NCBI GenBank assembly: GCA_903918755.1
Contig: CAIXFN010000056.1
Coordinates: forward strand, 62,001-126,000
Direction of reading: 5' to 3'
DNA length: 64,000 nucleotides
Origin: an uncultured Pedosphaera sp.
Lineage (GTDB): Bacteria; Verrucomicrobiota; Verrucomicrobiia; Limisphaerales; Pedosphaeraceae
The notes under the pieces: model-generated
The model's input: the letters and a program-made list of their open reading frames with translations, nothing else
Told to the model about the DNA's origin: nothing
The model's database searches: none
Shown here: piece after piece, positions 36,584-43,125 of the stretch
How positions within the stretch are numbered: the first letter of the stretch is position 1
How the letters are laid out: each line of letters begins with the position of its first letter
Program-made: the position numbers and the translations under genes

Positions 36584-36722
36584 CTGCTCCGGGCAGCGTC
36601 CAAACCGTGATTGGGCGAGCTGCCATCCAACCTGTTGCTTTTTCGGGGTCCCTTCAGTTCTCGGCTTCCACGATCTCTTTCGGCTTCCTTTCTTGTTACC
36701 TTTCGCCAACGGTGCCGATAAC

Positions 36723-38576
36723 ATGGATGTGACAAGCCAAAACGAACTCCTGCGGATGTTCCAGACCGACCGTTCCGAAGCGGCCTTTGCCGGCCTCGTT
36801 CGGCAATACTCCGGTCTGGTGTATTCCGTCGCCCGCCGCCGCTTACCCAACGCCACCCTGGCCGAGGATATCACGCAGATCGTTTTCATCAGACTGGCAC
36901 AATCACCACCTCGGGTCGGGACCGCCGCCGAACTGGCGGCCTGGCTGCATCGCACCACGCTGCATGTCGCCATCGATACCTGGCGCGCGGAAACCCGGCG
37001 CCATAGTCGCGAACAACGGGCCGCGGTTTTGGAAAACGAATCTGTTCCTGCGGAGGGCTCCCTCTGGGAGGAAATCTCGCCCCAACTCGACGCGGCTCTG
37101 GATCAATTGGACGACGACGATCGGCAGGCCCTTTTGCTGCGCTTCTTCAGTTCGAAACCGATGCGGGAAATCGGGGCTTCGTTTGGCATCAGCGAGGACG
37201 CCGCCAAAATGCGAGTCCGCAGGGCGCTGGACCGGCTACGCGACAAATTGGGAATTCCGGCCGCCGGGGCGGTTGGAGTCCTGGCCGCGACCCTCGAAAG
37301 TCGTGCCCTTGAGCTGGTACCAGCGACTTTGACCAGCCAGCTACGGCTGATTAAGCTGCCGACCGCCATTGCCGCGACCACTCTTGGTTTGGGTAGTTGG
37401 CTGACATCCCTGTTCAGTTCAAACCGCGGCCAACTGGCCACGGGCGCCGTTGTTTTAGTCTTACTGGCCGCATTTTTGCTGCATCACTTCAAAAAGGGCG
37501 CAAACCCTGCAAAGCCCTCCCAGGGAGTCGCGGCGGCCCGATCACCGGCAATTTTCGATTCCAAACTCAACCGTCGCCGTCTGGCCGATGGCAGCGGCGC
37601 TGACCGTCCCACCCATATGATATTGCAAGTGGTGGACGCGGATACCGGGCAGGGTTTGCCCGGAGCCCGGGTCCAAGTCAGCAGGGAGTTTTTCCGGGAG
37701 CCCCTGCTCTTCACCGACCAGGATGGCAGGGTGGCCATCCCCGAGCCGCATGCGACCAACCGCTCTCCCTTGCTCAACATCAGCGCGGAAGCGCAAGGCT
37801 ACGTAGCCAAAATCGCCGGCTTTCTGGTCGAAATCCCCCCTGATTTCAACGGAGTCATTATGGAGGAGAACCTCATTCAGGGGAATCCAAGTTCTTACAC
37901 CCTGCGTCTGGCCCGCGGAAAAACGCTCTCGGGAGTCGTGCTCAATGAATCCGGGCAACCGTTGGACAAAGTGCGGCTCCGAATTGCCGATTCAATACTC
38001 TTCCCCGATCGCGGGCCCGAACGTTCCTTCCTCGCGGAAAGTATCGTTACGAACCGGGCCGACGGAAGTTGGTCGGTGAACGGCTATCCAACCTTTATGC
38101 CCAACGAAATCCATTTTGTTCTCAATCGGAGCGGTTATGGTGTGAACTATGCAACGGTCTCCGCGACGAATGTGGATTTGAATCACTTAGTCTTTATCCT
38201 CCATAACGGGTTCACCATCGCCGGCCGGATCGTCGATGCCAACGGGGAGCCGATCACCAATGCATTTGTCCAAACCTTTCCACCGCAACCCTTGATCCGA
38301 CGTGAATTAGGCCGGCAATCCAGCGTAGATGAGCAAGGGAATTTTACCATGAGAGGTGTCAATATCCCGCCCGGTTCGCCAACCCCATTCTCCCCGACTG
38401 CATTGGACGGTGTAGCCAGGGCTGGCTCGGTCACCGGCGAACAAAGCACCAAGGTTCCAAAGCAACTACGCTTGCAAATTACGGCCGAAGGATTTGCAAC
38501 GAATTTCGTCAACGTGCCTCTCGCCGAACCGACGAATCGAATCACCGTCGTGCTCGCCGCCAATCCAGACAAATAA
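36723..38576 (+). CDS. ECF-type sigma factor fused to membrane helix and carboxypeptidase-regulatory-like region
   Basis: A 617-residue fusion. Residues 1-180 are a sigma-70 region 2/4 pair: FAGLVRQYSGLVYSVARRRL, AEDITQIVFIRLAQ (region 2) and DDRQALLLRFFSSKPMREIGASFGISEDAAKMRVRRALDRLR (region 4, here quoted as two parts of one helix-turn-helix). A membrane helix lies near 239-257 (GAVVLVLLAAFLLHHF). The outer 340 residues contain at least two carboxypeptidase-regulatory-like beta domains (QVVDADTGQGLPGARVQV, GRIVDANGEPITNAFVQ). No anti-sigma gene is adjacent. The sigma part would remain at the membrane unless released by proteolysis. Start ATG 36723 was preferred to 36693. Confidence 0.83.
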   Translation: MDVTSQNELLRMFQTDRSEAAFAGLVRQYSGLVYSVARRRLPNATLAEDITQIVFIRLAQSPPRVGTAAELAAWLHRTTLHVAIDTWRAETRRHSREQRAAVLENESVPAEGSLWEEISPQLDAALDQLDDDDRQALLLRFFSSKPMREIGASFGISEDAAKMRVRRALDRLRDKLGIPAAGAVGVLAATLESRALELVPATLTSQLRLIKLPTAIAATTLGLGSWLTSLFSSNRGQLATGAVVLVLLAAFLLHHFKKGANPAKPSQGVAAARSPAIFDSKLNRRRLADGSGADRPTHMILQVVDADTGQGLPGARVQVSREFFREPLLFTDQDGRVAIPEPHATNRSPLLNISAEAQGYVAKIAGFLVEIPPDFNGVIMEENLIQGNPSSYTLRLARGKTLSGVVLNESGQPLDKVRLRIADSILFPDRGPERSFLAESIVTNRADGSWSVNGYPTFMPNEIHFVLNRSGYGVNYATVSATNVDLNHLVFILHNGFTIAGRIVDANGEPITNAFVQTFPPQPLIRRELGRQSSVDEQGNFTMRGVNIPPGSPTPFSPTALDGVARAGSVTGEQSTKVPKQLRLQITAEGFATNFVNVPLAEPTNRITVVLAANPDK

Positions 38577-38692: not shown

Positions 38693-41600
38693 ATGCACCG
38701 CACCTTCATTGCCGCGTCCGCGCCGCCGGCGCGCCGTCCTGAAGGCTGCCTAATTCCCCGGTTGCTCTCCCGCAGTCTCCTTCTCCTGGCGTTAATCACC
38801 GGGTTGCCCAGCGCCTGTGTGGCCGAGGGCCCCGACTTCGCCACTGACATTCGGCCCATTTTTGCCCGCAGTTGTCTCCCCTGTCATGGTCCAGACAAGC
38901 AGAAAAGCGCTTATCGTCTGGATGTCCGCGACACCGCGATCCGGGGCGGCGAGAGCGGCAAGGCGGCCATTACGCCGCATAACTCCGCGGCCAGCCACTT
39001 GATCCGTCTGGTCAGCGGCGCCGATCCCGACTTGTTCATGCCACCACCCAAGAGCAGCCAGCCGGCACTGAGCGAAAAGGAGGTGGCCACCTTGCGCGCT
39101 TGGATCGATGCCGGTCCAAGCTGGCCGGATGAGTTGGCGGGTCCGTCGGTTCCTACGCCACCGCACTGGTCACTCCAGCCGTTGGTCCGCCCCACTGTGC
39201 CCAACCCGTCCGGCAATCCCATCGACGCCTTCATCCACGCGGGACTGGCAGCCAAACAGCTCACGCTTTCCCCGCCCGCCGACCGGTCCGCGCTGCTGCG
39301 TCGTGTCACCTATGATCTCACCGGGCTGCCCCCGACGCCCGCCGAACTGGCCGCCCTGGTGGCCGATCCGGATCCCCAAGCGTATGAAAAGGTGGTGGAC
39401 CGGCTCCTGGCTTCCCCCCGCTACGGCGAGCGATGGGCGCGGCACTGGCTGGACACCATCCATTTCGCGGATTCGCACGGTTACGAGCATGATCTCGGCC
39501 GCGACAACGCCTGGCGCTTCCGGGATTACGTCATCGCCGCGCTGAACCACGACACCCCCTGGTCCCGCTTCATCCACGAGCAACTCGCCGCCGACGTCTG
39601 CTACCCGGAGGAACCGCAACTCACGCCAGCGCTCGGTTTTCTCGGCGCCGGCACCTTTGATCTCAGCACTTACACCACCGGACCGGTCACCTTCAGCTAT
39701 CTGGATCGCGATGACCTCGTGACCCAGACCATGGCGGCGTTTACGAGCACCACGGCGAATTGCGCGCGCTGCCACGACCACAAGTTTGACCCCATCCCGC
39801 AGGCGGATTACTACGCGCTGCAGGCGGTGTTTGCGGGCGTTTTGAAGGGTGATGTGGCCTATGACGAAGATCCGACGGTGGTCCGCCAGCGCCGCCAATG
39901 GCAGGCCGTCCTCGCGGCCACGGATAAAAAGGACGCAACCTTGCTCCTGGCGTCCACCAACCAACCGCTCGTGGATGCCTGGCTGGCCGCCCAGGGACAG
40001 CCCGTTCCGTGGACGGAACTGACGGTCGCCACTTTTCTCTCCGCGGAAGGCGCCACCCTCACCCGCTCGCCGGACGGAGCGTTTCACTCGGGCGGAACCC
40101 GTCCGGACAAGGACACCTACACCATCACCGGCACCACCAGCCTGACGAATATCACCGCCCTCCGGCTGGACCTGCTCGCCGATGACGCGCTGCCTATGCA
40201 CGGTCCCGGGCGTAACGAAAACGGGAACCTTCACCTCTCGGAAATCGAATTGCGCCTTTTCTCGCGGGGAGCCACCAATTCGGCGCCGCTCAAGTTCCGC
40301 CGCGCCACGGCGGATTTCAACCAAACCGATTGGGGCGTGGAACGGGCACTGGACGGAGACCCGAAAACCGCCTGGGGGATTTATCCGCAAGTCGGTCAAT
40401 CCCATCAGGCTGTTTTTGAACTGGCGGAACCGCTCGCCAATCCGCCCGGATCACAATTCGCGATCGTGCTCAAACAACTGCACGGCGGTGGCCACATCAT
40501 CGGCGCTTTCCGGCTTTCAGTGACGGCCGCCGAGCCCGGCCGGGCCACGGTGCTGCCGTTCGAAGTCGCCGCCGCACTGGCAGTGGCTCCGGCGGAACGC
40601 ACTGCCACCCAGCAGGTCGTGCTGGCGGCGCATGCCTTGCGCCTCGCCGCCCGGTCGGCGTTGGAGAAGCTGCCGACCCAGTCCCTGGTTTACGCCGCCG
40701 CGCCGTCGGTGAAAATTGTCGGAGGCGAAATCAACACCCTGGCCAAACCCAAAGTGGTGAACGTCCTGCACCGGGGTGATATCGAACAACCCGGGCCGGT
40801 GGCGGAACCCGGCGCGCTCTCGGCCCTCACCCATTCGCCCGCCCGGTTTGTGCTGAACGATCCGCAAAACGAAGGCTCCCGCCGGGCCGCCCTCGCGGAT
40901 TGGCTCGCCCATCCAGATAATGTTCTTACCTGGCGCAGCGTGGTGAATCGCGTCTGGCATTACCATTTCGGTCGCGGACTTTGCGACACCCCGGGCGACC
41001 TCGGCCGGATGGGCGGCACCCCATCGCATCCCGAGTTACTCGACTGGCTCGCCGTCTGGTTTCGCGACAACGCCCACGGGTCACTGAAGAAATTGCACCG
41101 GCTGATCGTCACCAGCGCCACCTACCGCCAAACCTCCGAATTCCGGGAAGACGCGGCCCAGGTGGACGCGGACAATCGTCTGCTGTGGCGGCAAAACCGC
41201 CAGCGGCTGGATGCCGATGGTTTTCGCGACTTCACGCTTGCCACGGCAGGGGTGCTAAACCTGAAAATGGGCGGACCGGGAGTGAAACATTTCCGCCAGA
41301 GTCCGGGTCCACAAAACACGCCGGCGCTGGATTATCCCGCCTATGATTGGTCCGCACCGGAGGCGGGGCGGCGCAGCATCTACCGCTACGTGTGGCGCGG
41401 CATTGCGGATCCATTCATGGAGGCGCTGGACTTCCCGGATCTCGGTCTGCTGGCACCGGTCCGCGGACTTTCGAGTTCCTCCCTGCAGGCGCTCACGCTT
41501 TATAACAATGATTTCGTGCTCCACCACAGCGGCGTCTTCGCCCACCGGCTTGAAAGCGAGTCACCCACATTGGAGGGGCAAGTCACCCGGGCGGTGGCCC

Positions 41601-41725
41601 TGGTCTGGCTGCGGGAACCGCGGGAAGACGAACGCCGCGACCTGACCGCGTTCGCACGGACGCAGGGACTGCCCGCATTGTGCCGGCTCCTCCTGAACAG
41701 CAACGAATTCCTCTTCCTCGAATGA
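38693..41725 (+). CDS. Planctomycete-type cytochrome c protein (PSCyt1-DUF1549-DUF1553)
   Basis: A 1010-residue exported protein. The N-terminal signal region spans about 25-45. A cytochrome domain has CLPCH at about residues 61-65. DUF1549 (PSCyt2) contains DLTGLPPTPAELAAL and ERWARHWLDTIHFADS, and a second heme-like motif CARCH is in TTANCARCHDHKFDP. A middle discoidin-like section (HLSEIELRLF) precedes DUF1553 with HPDNVLTWRSVVNRVWHYHFGRG. These proteins are abundant in Planctomycetota and Verrucomicrobiota and are thought to handle electrons in polysaccharide-related metabolism. The stop overlaps the DUF1501 start (ATGA). The ATG at 38693 was chosen. Confidence 0.92.
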   Translation: MHRTFIAASAPPARRPEGCLIPRLLSRSLLLLALITGLPSACVAEGPDFATDIRPIFARSCLPCHGPDKQKSAYRLDVRDTAIRGGESGKAAITPHNSAASHLIRLVSGADPDLFMPPPKSSQPALSEKEVATLRAWIDAGPSWPDELAGPSVPTPPHWSLQPLVRPTVPNPSGNPIDAFIHAGLAAKQLTLSPPADRSALLRRVTYDLTGLPPTPAELAALVADPDPQAYEKVVDRLLASPRYGERWARHWLDTIHFADSHGYEHDLGRDNAWRFRDYVIAALNHDTPWSRFIHEQLAADVCYPEEPQLTPALGFLGAGTFDLSTYTTGPVTFSYLDRDDLVTQTMAAFTSTTANCARCHDHKFDPIPQADYYALQAVFAGVLKGDVAYDEDPTVVRQRRQWQAVLAATDKKDATLLLASTNQPLVDAWLAAQGQPVPWTELTVATFLSAEGATLTRSPDGAFHSGGTRPDKDTYTITGTTSLTNITALRLDLLADDALPMHGPGRNENGNLHLSEIELRLFSRGATNSAPLKFRRATADFNQTDWGVERALDGDPKTAWGIYPQVGQSHQAVFELAEPLANPPGSQFAIVLKQLHGGGHIIGAFRLSVTAAEPGRATVLPFEVAAALAVAPAERTATQQVVLAAHALRLAARSALEKLPTQSLVYAAAPSVKIVGGEINTLAKPKVVNVLHRGDIEQPGPVAEPGALSALTHSPARFVLNDPQNEGSRRAALADWLAHPDNVLTWRSVVNRVWHYHFGRGLCDTPGDLGRMGGTPSHPELLDWLAVWFRDNAHGSLKKLHRLIVTSATYRQTSEFREDAAQVDADNRLLWRQNRQRLDADGFRDFTLATAGVLNLKMGGPGVKHFRQSPGPQNTPALDYPAYDWSAPEAGRRSIYRYVWRGIADPFMEALDFPDLGLLAPVRGLSSSSLQALTLYNNDFVLHHSGVFAHRLESESPTLEGQVTRAVALVWLREPREDERRDLTAFARTQGLPALCRLLLNSNEFLFLE

Positions 41726-43125
41726 ATCCGCCATCCGCCTTCTCCCGTCGGCAATTTCTCGGCACCCTCGGCGCCGGTTTCGGCAGTCTGGCCTTCTCTC
41801 ACCTGTGGGCGGCCGACGCGCTAGGCGCCGGGATCACCCACCACCCGGCGAAAGTCCGGCGCGTCATCCAGCTGTTCATGACCGGCGGGGCCAGCCCGAT
41901 GGATACCTTTGATTACAAACCCGCGCTGGAGAAGTTGCACGGCCAAATGCTGGGTCCCAAGGAGAAGCCTGAAGGGTTCACCGCCGAGGTGGGGGCGATC
42001 ATGAAAAGTCCGTTCGAGTTCGCCCGGCACGGCGAATCCGGTCGCTGGGTGAGCAGCGTGTTCCCCGAACAGGCCAAACTGGTGGACGAAATGGCGTTTC
42101 TCATGGCCATGCAATCCAAGTCCAATGTGCATGGACCCGGCACGTACATGATGAATAGCGGGTTCCTCCTCCCGGGCTTCCCGTGCCTGGGCGCCTGGAT
42201 TTCCTACGCCCTGGGCAATCTCACTGACAACCTGCCCACGTTCGTAGTATTACCGGATGCCAAGGGCCTGCCGTACAACCAGCGCGGCTGTTTCTCGGCA
42301 GGATTCCTCCCCGCCGTCCATCAGGGCACCGTCATCAACGCCTCCAGCCCGCGTCCCGTCCCTGATTTGTTCGCCGCGGACAAATACGCCTTTGCGCAGA
42401 GAACGAACGATACCGCCAGCCTGGCGTTGCTGGACCGACTGAATCGCGCCCATGCCGCGGCCCATCCGGGCGACTCCCGCCTCGAAGCCCGGATCGCCAG
42501 CTATGAATTGGCCGCCAAGATGCAATTGTCCGCGCCCGACGCCTTCGACCTAACGCGCGAGTCCGCCGCCACGCGCACCGGCTATGGACTGGACAACCCG
42601 GTCACGGAGGATTTTGGCCGCCGCTGCCTCCTTGCGGCGCGCCTCGTGGAACGCGGGGTACGTTTTGTCCAGGTGTGGAGCGGACCCCAGGGGGCCACCG
42701 GCAACTGGGACAATCACGCCAACATCCAAAAGGAGCTCCCGCCCATGGCCGCCAGCGTGGACCGCCCCATCGCCGCCCTGCTGCGCGATTTGAAGGCGCG
42801 CGGTCTCGCGGACGACACGTTGGTCATCTGGACGACCGAATTCGGCCGCACGCCCTTCGCGCAAGGCGGCACCGGCCGCGACCACAACCGCGGGACGTTC
42901 GTCACCTGGCTCTGGGGCGCGGGGGTGAAAGCGGGCGTGGCGCATGGTCAAAGCGATGATTGGGGCTACCAGGCCGCCGAGAACAAAACCTACTGCTACG
43001 ACCTCCACGCCACTGTCCTGCACTTGCTGGGCCTCAACCACGAAAAACTGACCGTCCGCCAAAACGGCCTCGACCGCCGGCTCACGGATGTCCACGGCCA
43101 GGTGATTCGCGAAATTTTGAGTTAA
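41722..43125 (+). CDS. Tat-exported DUF1501 protein
   Basis: A 467-residue protein. The twin-arginine signal SRRQFLGTLGAGFGSLAF is at residues 8-25, so it is exported folded. The DUF1501 (sulfatase/phosphatase-superfamily-like) body has FMTGGASPMDTFDYKP, MNSGFLLPGFPCLGAWISY, NWDNHANIQK and VIWTTEFGRTPFAQGG, with conserved Asp and His residues likely to bind metal. It is the usual partner of DUF1549/DUF1553 proteins, here translationally coupled by ATGA. The substrate is unknown. Confidence 0.93.
   Translation: MNPPSAFSRRQFLGTLGAGFGSLAFSHLWAADALGAGITHHPAKVRRVIQLFMTGGASPMDTFDYKPALEKLHGQMLGPKEKPEGFTAEVGAIMKSPFEFARHGESGRWVSSVFPEQAKLVDEMAFLMAMQSKSNVHGPGTYMMNSGFLLPGFPCLGAWISYALGNLTDNLPTFVVLPDAKGLPYNQRGCFSAGFLPAVHQGTVINASSPRPVPDLFAADKYAFAQRTNDTASLALLDRLNRAHAAAHPGDSRLEARIASYELAAKMQLSAPDAFDLTRESAATRTGYGLDNPVTEDFGRRCLLAARLVERGVRFVQVWSGPQGATGNWDNHANIQKELPPMAASVDRPIAALLRDLKARGLADDTLVIWTTEFGRTPFAQGGTGRDHNRGTFVTWLWGAGVKAGVAHGQSDDWGYQAAENKTYCYDLHATVLHLLGLNHEKLTVRQNGLDRRLTDVHGQVIREILS

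Follow-up and report, generated by a model that had tools for sequence, protein, structure and literature searches.

A modular family of membrane-tethered ECF sigma factors in Verrucomicrobia with predicted self-promoters read through two region 4 residues

What might a sigma factor gain from being built into the same chain as a membrane helix and a long outer part, and what would it transcribe? The question is raised by P0001, a gene on the forward strand of the window (the whole 64,000-nucleotide stretch of uncultured Pedosphaera DNA analysed here). An earlier note had described its product as a single polypeptide with a complete ECF-type region 2/4 pair, one membrane helix and an outer carboxypeptidase-regulatory-like part of about 340 residues, sensing directly with no separate anti-sigma factor. 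The parts of the gene are as follows.

36723..38576, + strand: P0001, membrane-tethered ECF sigma factor (open frame, 617 aa as called)
36795..37001, + strand: sigma region 2, residues 25-93 (Pfam Sigma70_r2, 4.4e-14, whole profile)
37095..37241, + strand: sigma region 4, residues 125-173 (Pfam Sigma70_r4, 1.3e-11, profile positions 1-49 of 50)
37206..37211, + strand: K162-M163, recognition-helix specificity residues (top three APC-corrected protein-promoter pairs)
37248..37427, + strand: conserved linker, predicted helices 183-195 and about 201-209 (G180/L187/P200 columns)
37434..37490, + strand: membrane helix, residues 238-256 (hydropathy, AlphaFold and family rows)
37494..38573, + strand: outer part, beta-sandwich repeats (strands 298-610 in the model; Foldseek matches)
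38214..38363, + strand: CarboxypepD_reg domain, residues 498-547 (Pfam PF13620, 2.1e-12)

The open frame was confirmed at 617 aa and holds a one-polypeptide sigma factor as described, both regions of the pair matching nearly the whole of their Pfam profiles; the outer part measures 360 residues rather than about 340. Sigma70_r2, Sigma70_r4 and CarboxypepD_reg all score above the Pfam cut-offs, and P0001 exceeds those of PF04542, PF04545, PF08281 and TIGR02937, the pattern of a sigma factor with regions 2 and 4 only. It scores 88.9 bits against the NCBIfam superfamily model TIGR02937 (cut-off, 42.9) and falls below cut-off for 24 other NCBIfam models among the 77 matches listed; the named ECF subfamilies TIGR02989 (39.7 against 124.55) and TIGR02984 (48.5 against 183.75) are not reached. 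In fold, the sigma part resembles sigmaE, SigW and AlgU (Foldseek and structure comparison).

P0001 is part of a large modular family in which the sigma half, linker and helix are shared and the outer halves vary. Our family alignment holds 73 distinct-looking rows (more than 85 bits and more than 240 residues; shorter, weaker and duplicate rows removed), among which L052 and L098 are the same gene counted twice. P0001's own genome (7.19 Mb, 97% complete) encodes eight more relatives of the sigma half at E <= 5e-30, in frames of 338 to 1252 residues. The earlier remark that similar fusions occur in the group proved well founded: they are common in the order, with a family match at E <= 1e-20 in 42 of 78 genomes, P0001's own included, and relatives numbering up to at least 16 per genome. 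Alignment A2, run against the GTDB collection, returned 42 loci, which by title comprise 20 from Verrucomicrobia, 7 from Phycisphaerae or Tepidisphaeraceae, 4 assigned to bacteria only and 11 others of low similarity; the family thus ranges over P0001's order, with relatives in Phycisphaerae. Among the closest known sigma factors, the planctomycete ECF01-type ones with long C-terminal extensions are described as membrane-anchored, with varied C-terminal domains.

Among 27 aligned members, 11 have a CarboxypepD_reg outer part, 4 an AhpC-TSA match and 3 a HEAT_2 match. In the own genome, L056 also carries CarboxypepD_reg, L057 has a sub-threshold Secretin match, and further outer parts are coiled-coil-like with weak matches or match no family. 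The carboxypeptidase-regulatory-like part of the earlier note is therefore present in P0001 as PF13620, but it is one of several outer parts and does not define the family. Four members (L097, L099, L101 and L103) have a thioredoxin-like C-terminal region with no CxxC and are probably the four AhpC-TSA matches. Redox sensing through such parts (4 of 27) was considered and dropped, because seven proteins checked have no CxxC and the cysteine count of P0001 is zero.

Several loci depart from this plan. The frame of the close P0001 relative L052 (6394-8341; also L098) breaks after residue 373, the next frame holding more outer repeats, and this break may be either real or an assembly error. The relative L050 extends about one repeat beyond the end of P0001; by eye, no remnant of a further outer part was seen in other frames past the P0001 stop. 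At L081 (7945-11502; G049:C75), a family sigma gene with its helix continues in frame into dihydroxy-acid dehydratase, giving 1185 residues, by either a true fusion or a lost stop. A link to ilvD, which precedes P0001, was entertained and rejected, as the two arrangements differ and no other examined locus has one.

The single membrane helix proposed earlier reappears in prediction: one hydropathy segment of P0001 reaches 1.6 (residues 238-256, value 2.14), and two AlphaFold models place a helix at 236/238-257, followed by a beta-rich outer part from residue 298. A 19-residue segment at or above 1.6 lies in the helix region in 65 of the 73 rows; random outer stretches average 0.52, and 1 of 20 reaches 1.6 in 4 of 71 rows. 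Seven of the nine own-genome members reach 1.6 in the helix region, the exceptions being L054 (1.35) and L059 (1.59). The family mean net charge, +1.6 before the helix and +0.7 after it, fits an N-in/C-out orientation; the flanks of P0001 itself, with one K/R in the 15 residues before and three after, do not favour C-out. We predict for P0001 an N-in/C-out topology with the outer part outside. A weaker hydrophobic stretch (residues 176-206) reaches 1.6 in 18 of 73 rows, and for this reason there may be two membrane spans with the C terminus turned inwards, which would count against the explanation favoured below. In the model, the outer part consists of beta-sandwich repeats with some loose loops; its best Foldseek matches, at low TM-scores, are pilin, S-layer and surface proteins, which would fit an outside location. 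One family member, L119 (7989-8828), stops directly past the membrane helix at 279 residues; the tether can thus occur without an outer part.

Between the sigma part and the helix stand three conserved linker columns, G180, L187 and P200, each of them retained in 66 of 73 rows; at the first of these, P0001 has A180. An anti-sigma-like fold was sought; the fold-comparison rows for P0001 span residues 1-180, and the linker model is of low confidence (pLDDT below 50 at residues 211-224; pTM 0.48). A signal-peptidase-like A-x-A before the conserved proline (linker residues 195-200) is seen in 54 of 73 rows and is absent in P0001.

The earlier note had suggested looking upstream of 36723 for a promoter that the sigma factor itself might recognise. 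A candidate does lie there, pointed to both by a family motif and by the residue-base rule described below.

36693..36722, + strand: family promoter motif, 30-mer (PWM score 22.1; directly 5' of the first ATG)
36694..36700, + strand: -35 element TGTTACC, the form paired with K162-M163 (residue-base rule)
36716..36721, + strand: -10-like element CGATAA, 15 nt past GTTACC (putative -10 assignment)

The 30-mer (36693-36722), to which the called ATG adjoins, reads TTGTTACCTTTCGCCAACGGTGCCGATAAC and contains the bipartite site TGTTACC-N15-CGATAA (36694-36721) directly before the start codon. A bipartite site just 5' of the start codon recurs across the upstream regions of 71 family rows. Scored with a 30-column matrix, 59 of these 71 exceed the 99th percentile of the upstreams of 529 other genes from the same loci, a figure that is optimistic because the matrix was trained on the same family upstreams (the held-out tests below are not affected); 6 of the 529 controls lie above threshold. 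Counting against the motif, 12 of the 71 fall below threshold, and the best control (20.2) exceeds the family median (17.6). Over 1.10 Mb of loci, both strands, the matrix found 114 sites above threshold, of which 61 belong to family genes and 49 lie elsewhere; the other 4 precede sigma genes that are not part of the set, one such gene being counted twice. The median distance from the end of the 30-mer to the first in-frame start is 8 nt (n = 62), with 15 nt or less in 54 of 62, from which the transcripts should be leaderless or nearly so. Since the motif abuts the called ATG of P0001, translation may really begin at the better-placed GTG, position 36729. The locus L088 (1763-10085; G069:C113) carries a tandem of five family sigma genes, each with an above-threshold family promoter site.

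Residues of the recognition helix vary together with promoter bases. The strongest APC-corrected residue-promoter pairs, among the pairs examined, join residue 162 to promoter position 7, 163 to position 5 and 162 to position 8; residues 162 and 163 presumably correspond to sigmaE R171 and S172. The fourth covarying pair joins linker residue 182 to position 5, for which a contact is a difficult explanation and which implies that shared descent contributes to the signal. A residue-base rule was built on the 62 rows with a site, L052/L098 again counting twice. KM goes with TGTTAC in 18 of 19 rows (one TTCC; 17 of 18 when counted as genes), QK with TGTC[CG]G in 19 of 19 (17 of 19 if C[CG]GA is treated more strictly, as a class of its own) and RK with the same form in 7 of 7. 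KK goes with TGTCCC (6 of 6), RM with TGT[GT]CG (6 of 7) and KQ with TCAC (2 of 2); KR and KV, with one row each, have TCCC and TTAC.

Two observations indicate that the code is not merely descent. A 61-tip tree from which the recognition helix was left out shows 19 changes of promoter class and 16 of the residue pair, against at least 30 in each of 200 shuffles; and among 30 disjoint nearest pairs, different residues accompany a different promoter class in 9 of 9 and equal residues the same class in 19 of 21. We also applied the rule to sixty further loci, masking the four variable positions when sites were chosen. Nine of the sixty, among them L200, which duplicates the gene of L113, have no site above threshold, and this counts against the self-promoter reading; five have residue pairs for which there is no rule (KT twice with AACC, HK, RV and TV). 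The rule was right in 39 of 46, against a mean of 14.4 and a maximum of 25 in 10,000 permutations of the labels; the tested genes share ancestry with one another and with the training genes (L211 and L212 have an identical 30-mer), and those of L187, L233 and L235 have sites already known from the 78-genome pattern scan. The seven misses, which also count against that reading, are one KM with TCCC and six QK (CCGC, CCGG twice, CGGC and CTCC twice). The KT pairs of L207 and L219 go with TGTAACC, a combination absent from the training set that extends the code. Because residues 162 and 163 predict the -35 bases in most of these held-out genes, each family protein very probably reads its own promoter.

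Does P0001 serve any other promoter? In the own genome, the tight pattern TGTTACCNTTN{7,9}GSKGN{3,4}TWA has three matches, the promoters of P0001, L056 and L055, and none when reversed; a looser KM-class pattern finds the same three sites (reversed control, 5). A fixed P0001-type pattern with up to two mismatches finds P0001 only (reversed, 4), and the RK/QK pattern has three matches, each before a family sigma gene (reversed, 0). Looser own-genome patterns also match elsewhere, at about the control level: GTTACCTTN{12,16}CGWT finds P0001 and two places not before a gene start (reversed, 7), and TGTYACCTTN{8,14}GGYG finds 11 distinct places, including two family promoters (reversed, 7). Three of the nine non-family places were examined; two lie inside genes and one, L147, upstream of a gene. 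The L147 site (G000:C111:9216-9241), TGTTACCTT, stands about 110 nt before a soluble own-genome ECF gene and is either a chance match or a real target.

Across 78 genomes, the QK-class pattern TGTCSGATTTN{7,11}GSSGN{2,5}TWA has 34 distinct sites (reversed, 5). Thirty were examined: 24 precede family sigma genes (21 from direct examination of 27 sites, plus the held-out genes L187, L233 and L235), one is L161, a short frame that begins like a family gene and then breaks, and five do not precede such genes. Fifteen of the 21 lie outside the training set, and of these 14 carry QK and one RK. Four of the five non-sigma sites are in genomes without a family match at E <= 1e-20; two of the five, L164 and L172, both in such genomes, are placed directly in front of long open frames of another kind. 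With the strict P0001-type pattern, the 78 genomes give two sites, one at P0001 and one at its closest relative in G006 (reversed, 2). Other KM-class targets were sought with a loose pattern in 9 genomes and rejected. Of its 10 sites (reversed, 33 in total), 3 belong to the sigma genes of the own genome and three fall within called genes; L251 is 88 nt before a gene, L246 has no start nearby, and L247 and L250 are 49 nt before called starts in sequence resembling a conserved coding start. No regulon is visible with the tight patterns in the own genome or the 78 genomes, a scope that looser targets would escape, and so the sequence evidence for the absence of a regulon beyond genes of the same kind is suggestive.

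The genes next downstream bear on the same question.

38762..41725, + strand: PSCyt1/PSCyt2/PSD1 protein, the next gene (possible read-through from the sigma promoter)
41722..43125, + strand: DUF1501 protein, overlapping the preceding PSCyt/PSD1 gene (Pfam)

The gap from P0001 to the PSCyt/PSD1 gene is 186 nt with the called start and 78 nt with the longest frame, and no terminator-like site was found between them. One or both of these gene types also occur at loci L063, L102, L109 and L113. We nevertheless judged an operon link between P0001 and the pair to be near chance, given 31 PSD1 matches in the own genome and the lack of the pair in the closest relatives, L050 and L052. The 31 PSD1 (DUF1553) matches, in about 30 genes, amount to a large expansion of planctomycete-cytochrome type.

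An anti-sigma factor is the other thing that a neighbour might supply. The earlier claim that there is no separate one agrees with what we found: no anti-sigma family was recognised among the six window neighbours of P0001 (two of which match no family) or among nine neighbours of its own-genome paralogues. Because three of those nine match no family, an unrecognised anti-sigma factor may yet lie next to family genes, which would count against the explanation that we favour. Within P0001 itself, no C-terminal anti-sigma domain had a Pfam match up to E 0.01.

On balance, we think it fairly probable that P0001 is a positively autoregulated, membrane-anchored ECF sigma factor with its sensor on the same chain. 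The outer part would bind a ligand or an envelope structure, and at rest the membrane anchor would stop the sigma part from working freely. Upon a signal, the outer part might be trimmed, after which an S2P protease, for example the organism's own RseP-like protein, would free the sigma part; this could then bind TGTTACC-N15-CGATAA and amplify its own gene, with possible read-through into the PSCyt-DUF1501 pair. By analogy, release by intramembrane proteolysis is the most likely step. Like 14 of 14 control genomes, the own genome encodes an RseP-like M50 protease, which makes the route possible.

The nearest known case is IutY of Pseudomonas putida, which the available text of PMC5411451 and PMC8999054 describes as a sigma/anti-sigma fusion of group ECF243 freed by Prc and RseP. 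As described there, IutY too is one chain with a cytosolic ECF sigma domain, a membrane helix and a periplasmic part, but it includes an anti-sigma factor, and its response to aerobactin passes through a receptor. P0001 differs in its outer fold, its self-promoter and its lack of an anti-sigma domain match; for this last reason we propose a possible likeness to IutY in its working and do not identify it as an IutY. The ECF48, ECF52 (SCO4117) and ECF53 proteins of Actinobacteria are also alike in their C-terminal fusion, membrane helices and long extensions, and release by proteolysis is expected of them in the available part of PMC8999054; as described, they have a zinc-finger anti-sigma region, whereas P0001 has no such match and no cysteine.

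Early hallmarks of ECF sigma factors, in the accessible part of PMC8103513, were autoregulation, an AAC/CGT promoter and a co-transcribed anti-sigma factor, the last two of which have since been dropped as requirements. P0001 shows the first as far as sequence can, in its self-promoter and the residue-base rule. Its predicted -35 and -10, TGTTACC and CGATAA, are not AAC and CGT, and no anti-sigma factor was recognised among 15 neighbours, five of them without a family match. The same text puts autoregulation at around 55% of ECF sigma factors and reports that Todor et al. (2020) used self-promoters to link sigma residues to -35 and -10 bases. Compared with that code as cited there, the link at P0001 lies within one membrane-tethered family and, by the tight patterns, extends to no further target.

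A second reading, which we hold to be possible but doubtful, is that transcription by the sigma half is devoted almost wholly to its own gene, the outer half being the product that matters. The sigma part would then give an envelope protein its private positive-feedback switch instead of heading a regulon; this can be combined with release by proteolysis. The reading draws on the tight own-genome patterns, which match only promoters of family sigma genes, on the 24 of 30 examined QK-class sites before such genes (reversed control, 5), and on the P0001-type pattern, which in 78 genomes occurs at P0001, at the gene most closely related to it and nowhere else (reversed control, 2). In addition, of the 65 family genes whose downstream neighbour is visible, 50 lack a co-directional gene in the next 150 nt, compared with 292 of 527 other genes, and the outer halves vary. 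However, the patterns derive from the sigma genes' own promoters, so that looser target promoters would escape them; the looser own-genome patterns match two (control, 7) and nine (control, 7) places besides family promoters, with L147 before a soluble ECF gene; and the L164 and L172 sites stand directly before other open frames. The genes that follow P0001 are co-directional with it, and further targets are normal for ECF sigma factors.

We consider it unlikely that intact P0001 would act as a sigma factor at the membrane, uncleaved and on its own locus. The anchor is kept in 65 of 73 rows, the target recognised is the protein's own gene, and coupled transcription, translation and insertion could bring that gene to the membrane; yet IutY variants that retained periplasmic residues needed RseP for activation, according to the available text of PMC5411451. 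Improbable to a greater degree is a first cut in the linker by signal peptidase rather than by an S2P cascade, after the A-x-A before the conserved proline. The form [AVSTGIL]x[AGS] with its last residue at position 198, together with P200, occurs in 54 of 73 rows, and site 1 of the anti-sigma factor RsiP is cut by signal peptidase (PMC8844934, in the part available), but P0001 itself lacks the fit, and hydrophobicity along the stretch is no more than moderate (median 1.36). That P0001 is an outer-part protein with a decayed sigma domain, no longer acting in transcription, is hardly credible: the unusual architecture speaks for it and nothing more, while regions 2 and 4 each align over almost the full Pfam profile, and promoter bases can still be predicted from the recognition residues.

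Membrane-bound and C-terminally extended ECF sigma factors, their autoregulation and a residue-to-promoter code are already known (PMC8999054 and PMC8103513, in the parts available). As far as our literature search shows, what is new is a family-wide self-promoter of membrane-tethered sigma factors in a near-leaderless position, together with a two-residue code within one family and a tight promoter form absent elsewhere in the genome. The search recognised no literature on these Verrucomicrobia fusions, which may be covered in part by Todor et al. (2020), the 2021 ECF reclassification and the Planctomycetes papers of 2012 and 2020. The findings raise the questions of how a membrane-fixed sigma factor transcribes and why its tight promoter stands only before its own kind of gene.

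If the reading that we favour is true, P0001 is a one-gene sensing and switching unit that does without a separate anti-sigma factor, and one molecule could sense, switch and amplify itself. The own genome has nine family sigma genes with four residue codes (KM, QK, RK and KK), and relatives have at least 16 genes. Speculatively, the PVC group may hold a widespread class of self-transcribing membrane proteins, each with a dedicated sigma factor whose sole promoter is that of its own gene or of same-code paralogues; the sigma half would be a private bistable switch, and at least nine copies with at least four -35 codes would coexist in one genome through two residues that change with the promoter. 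These natural sigma-promoter pairs form a readable region 4 code (residues 162 and 163 against the -35 element) that is directly testable and could help to build orthogonal switches.
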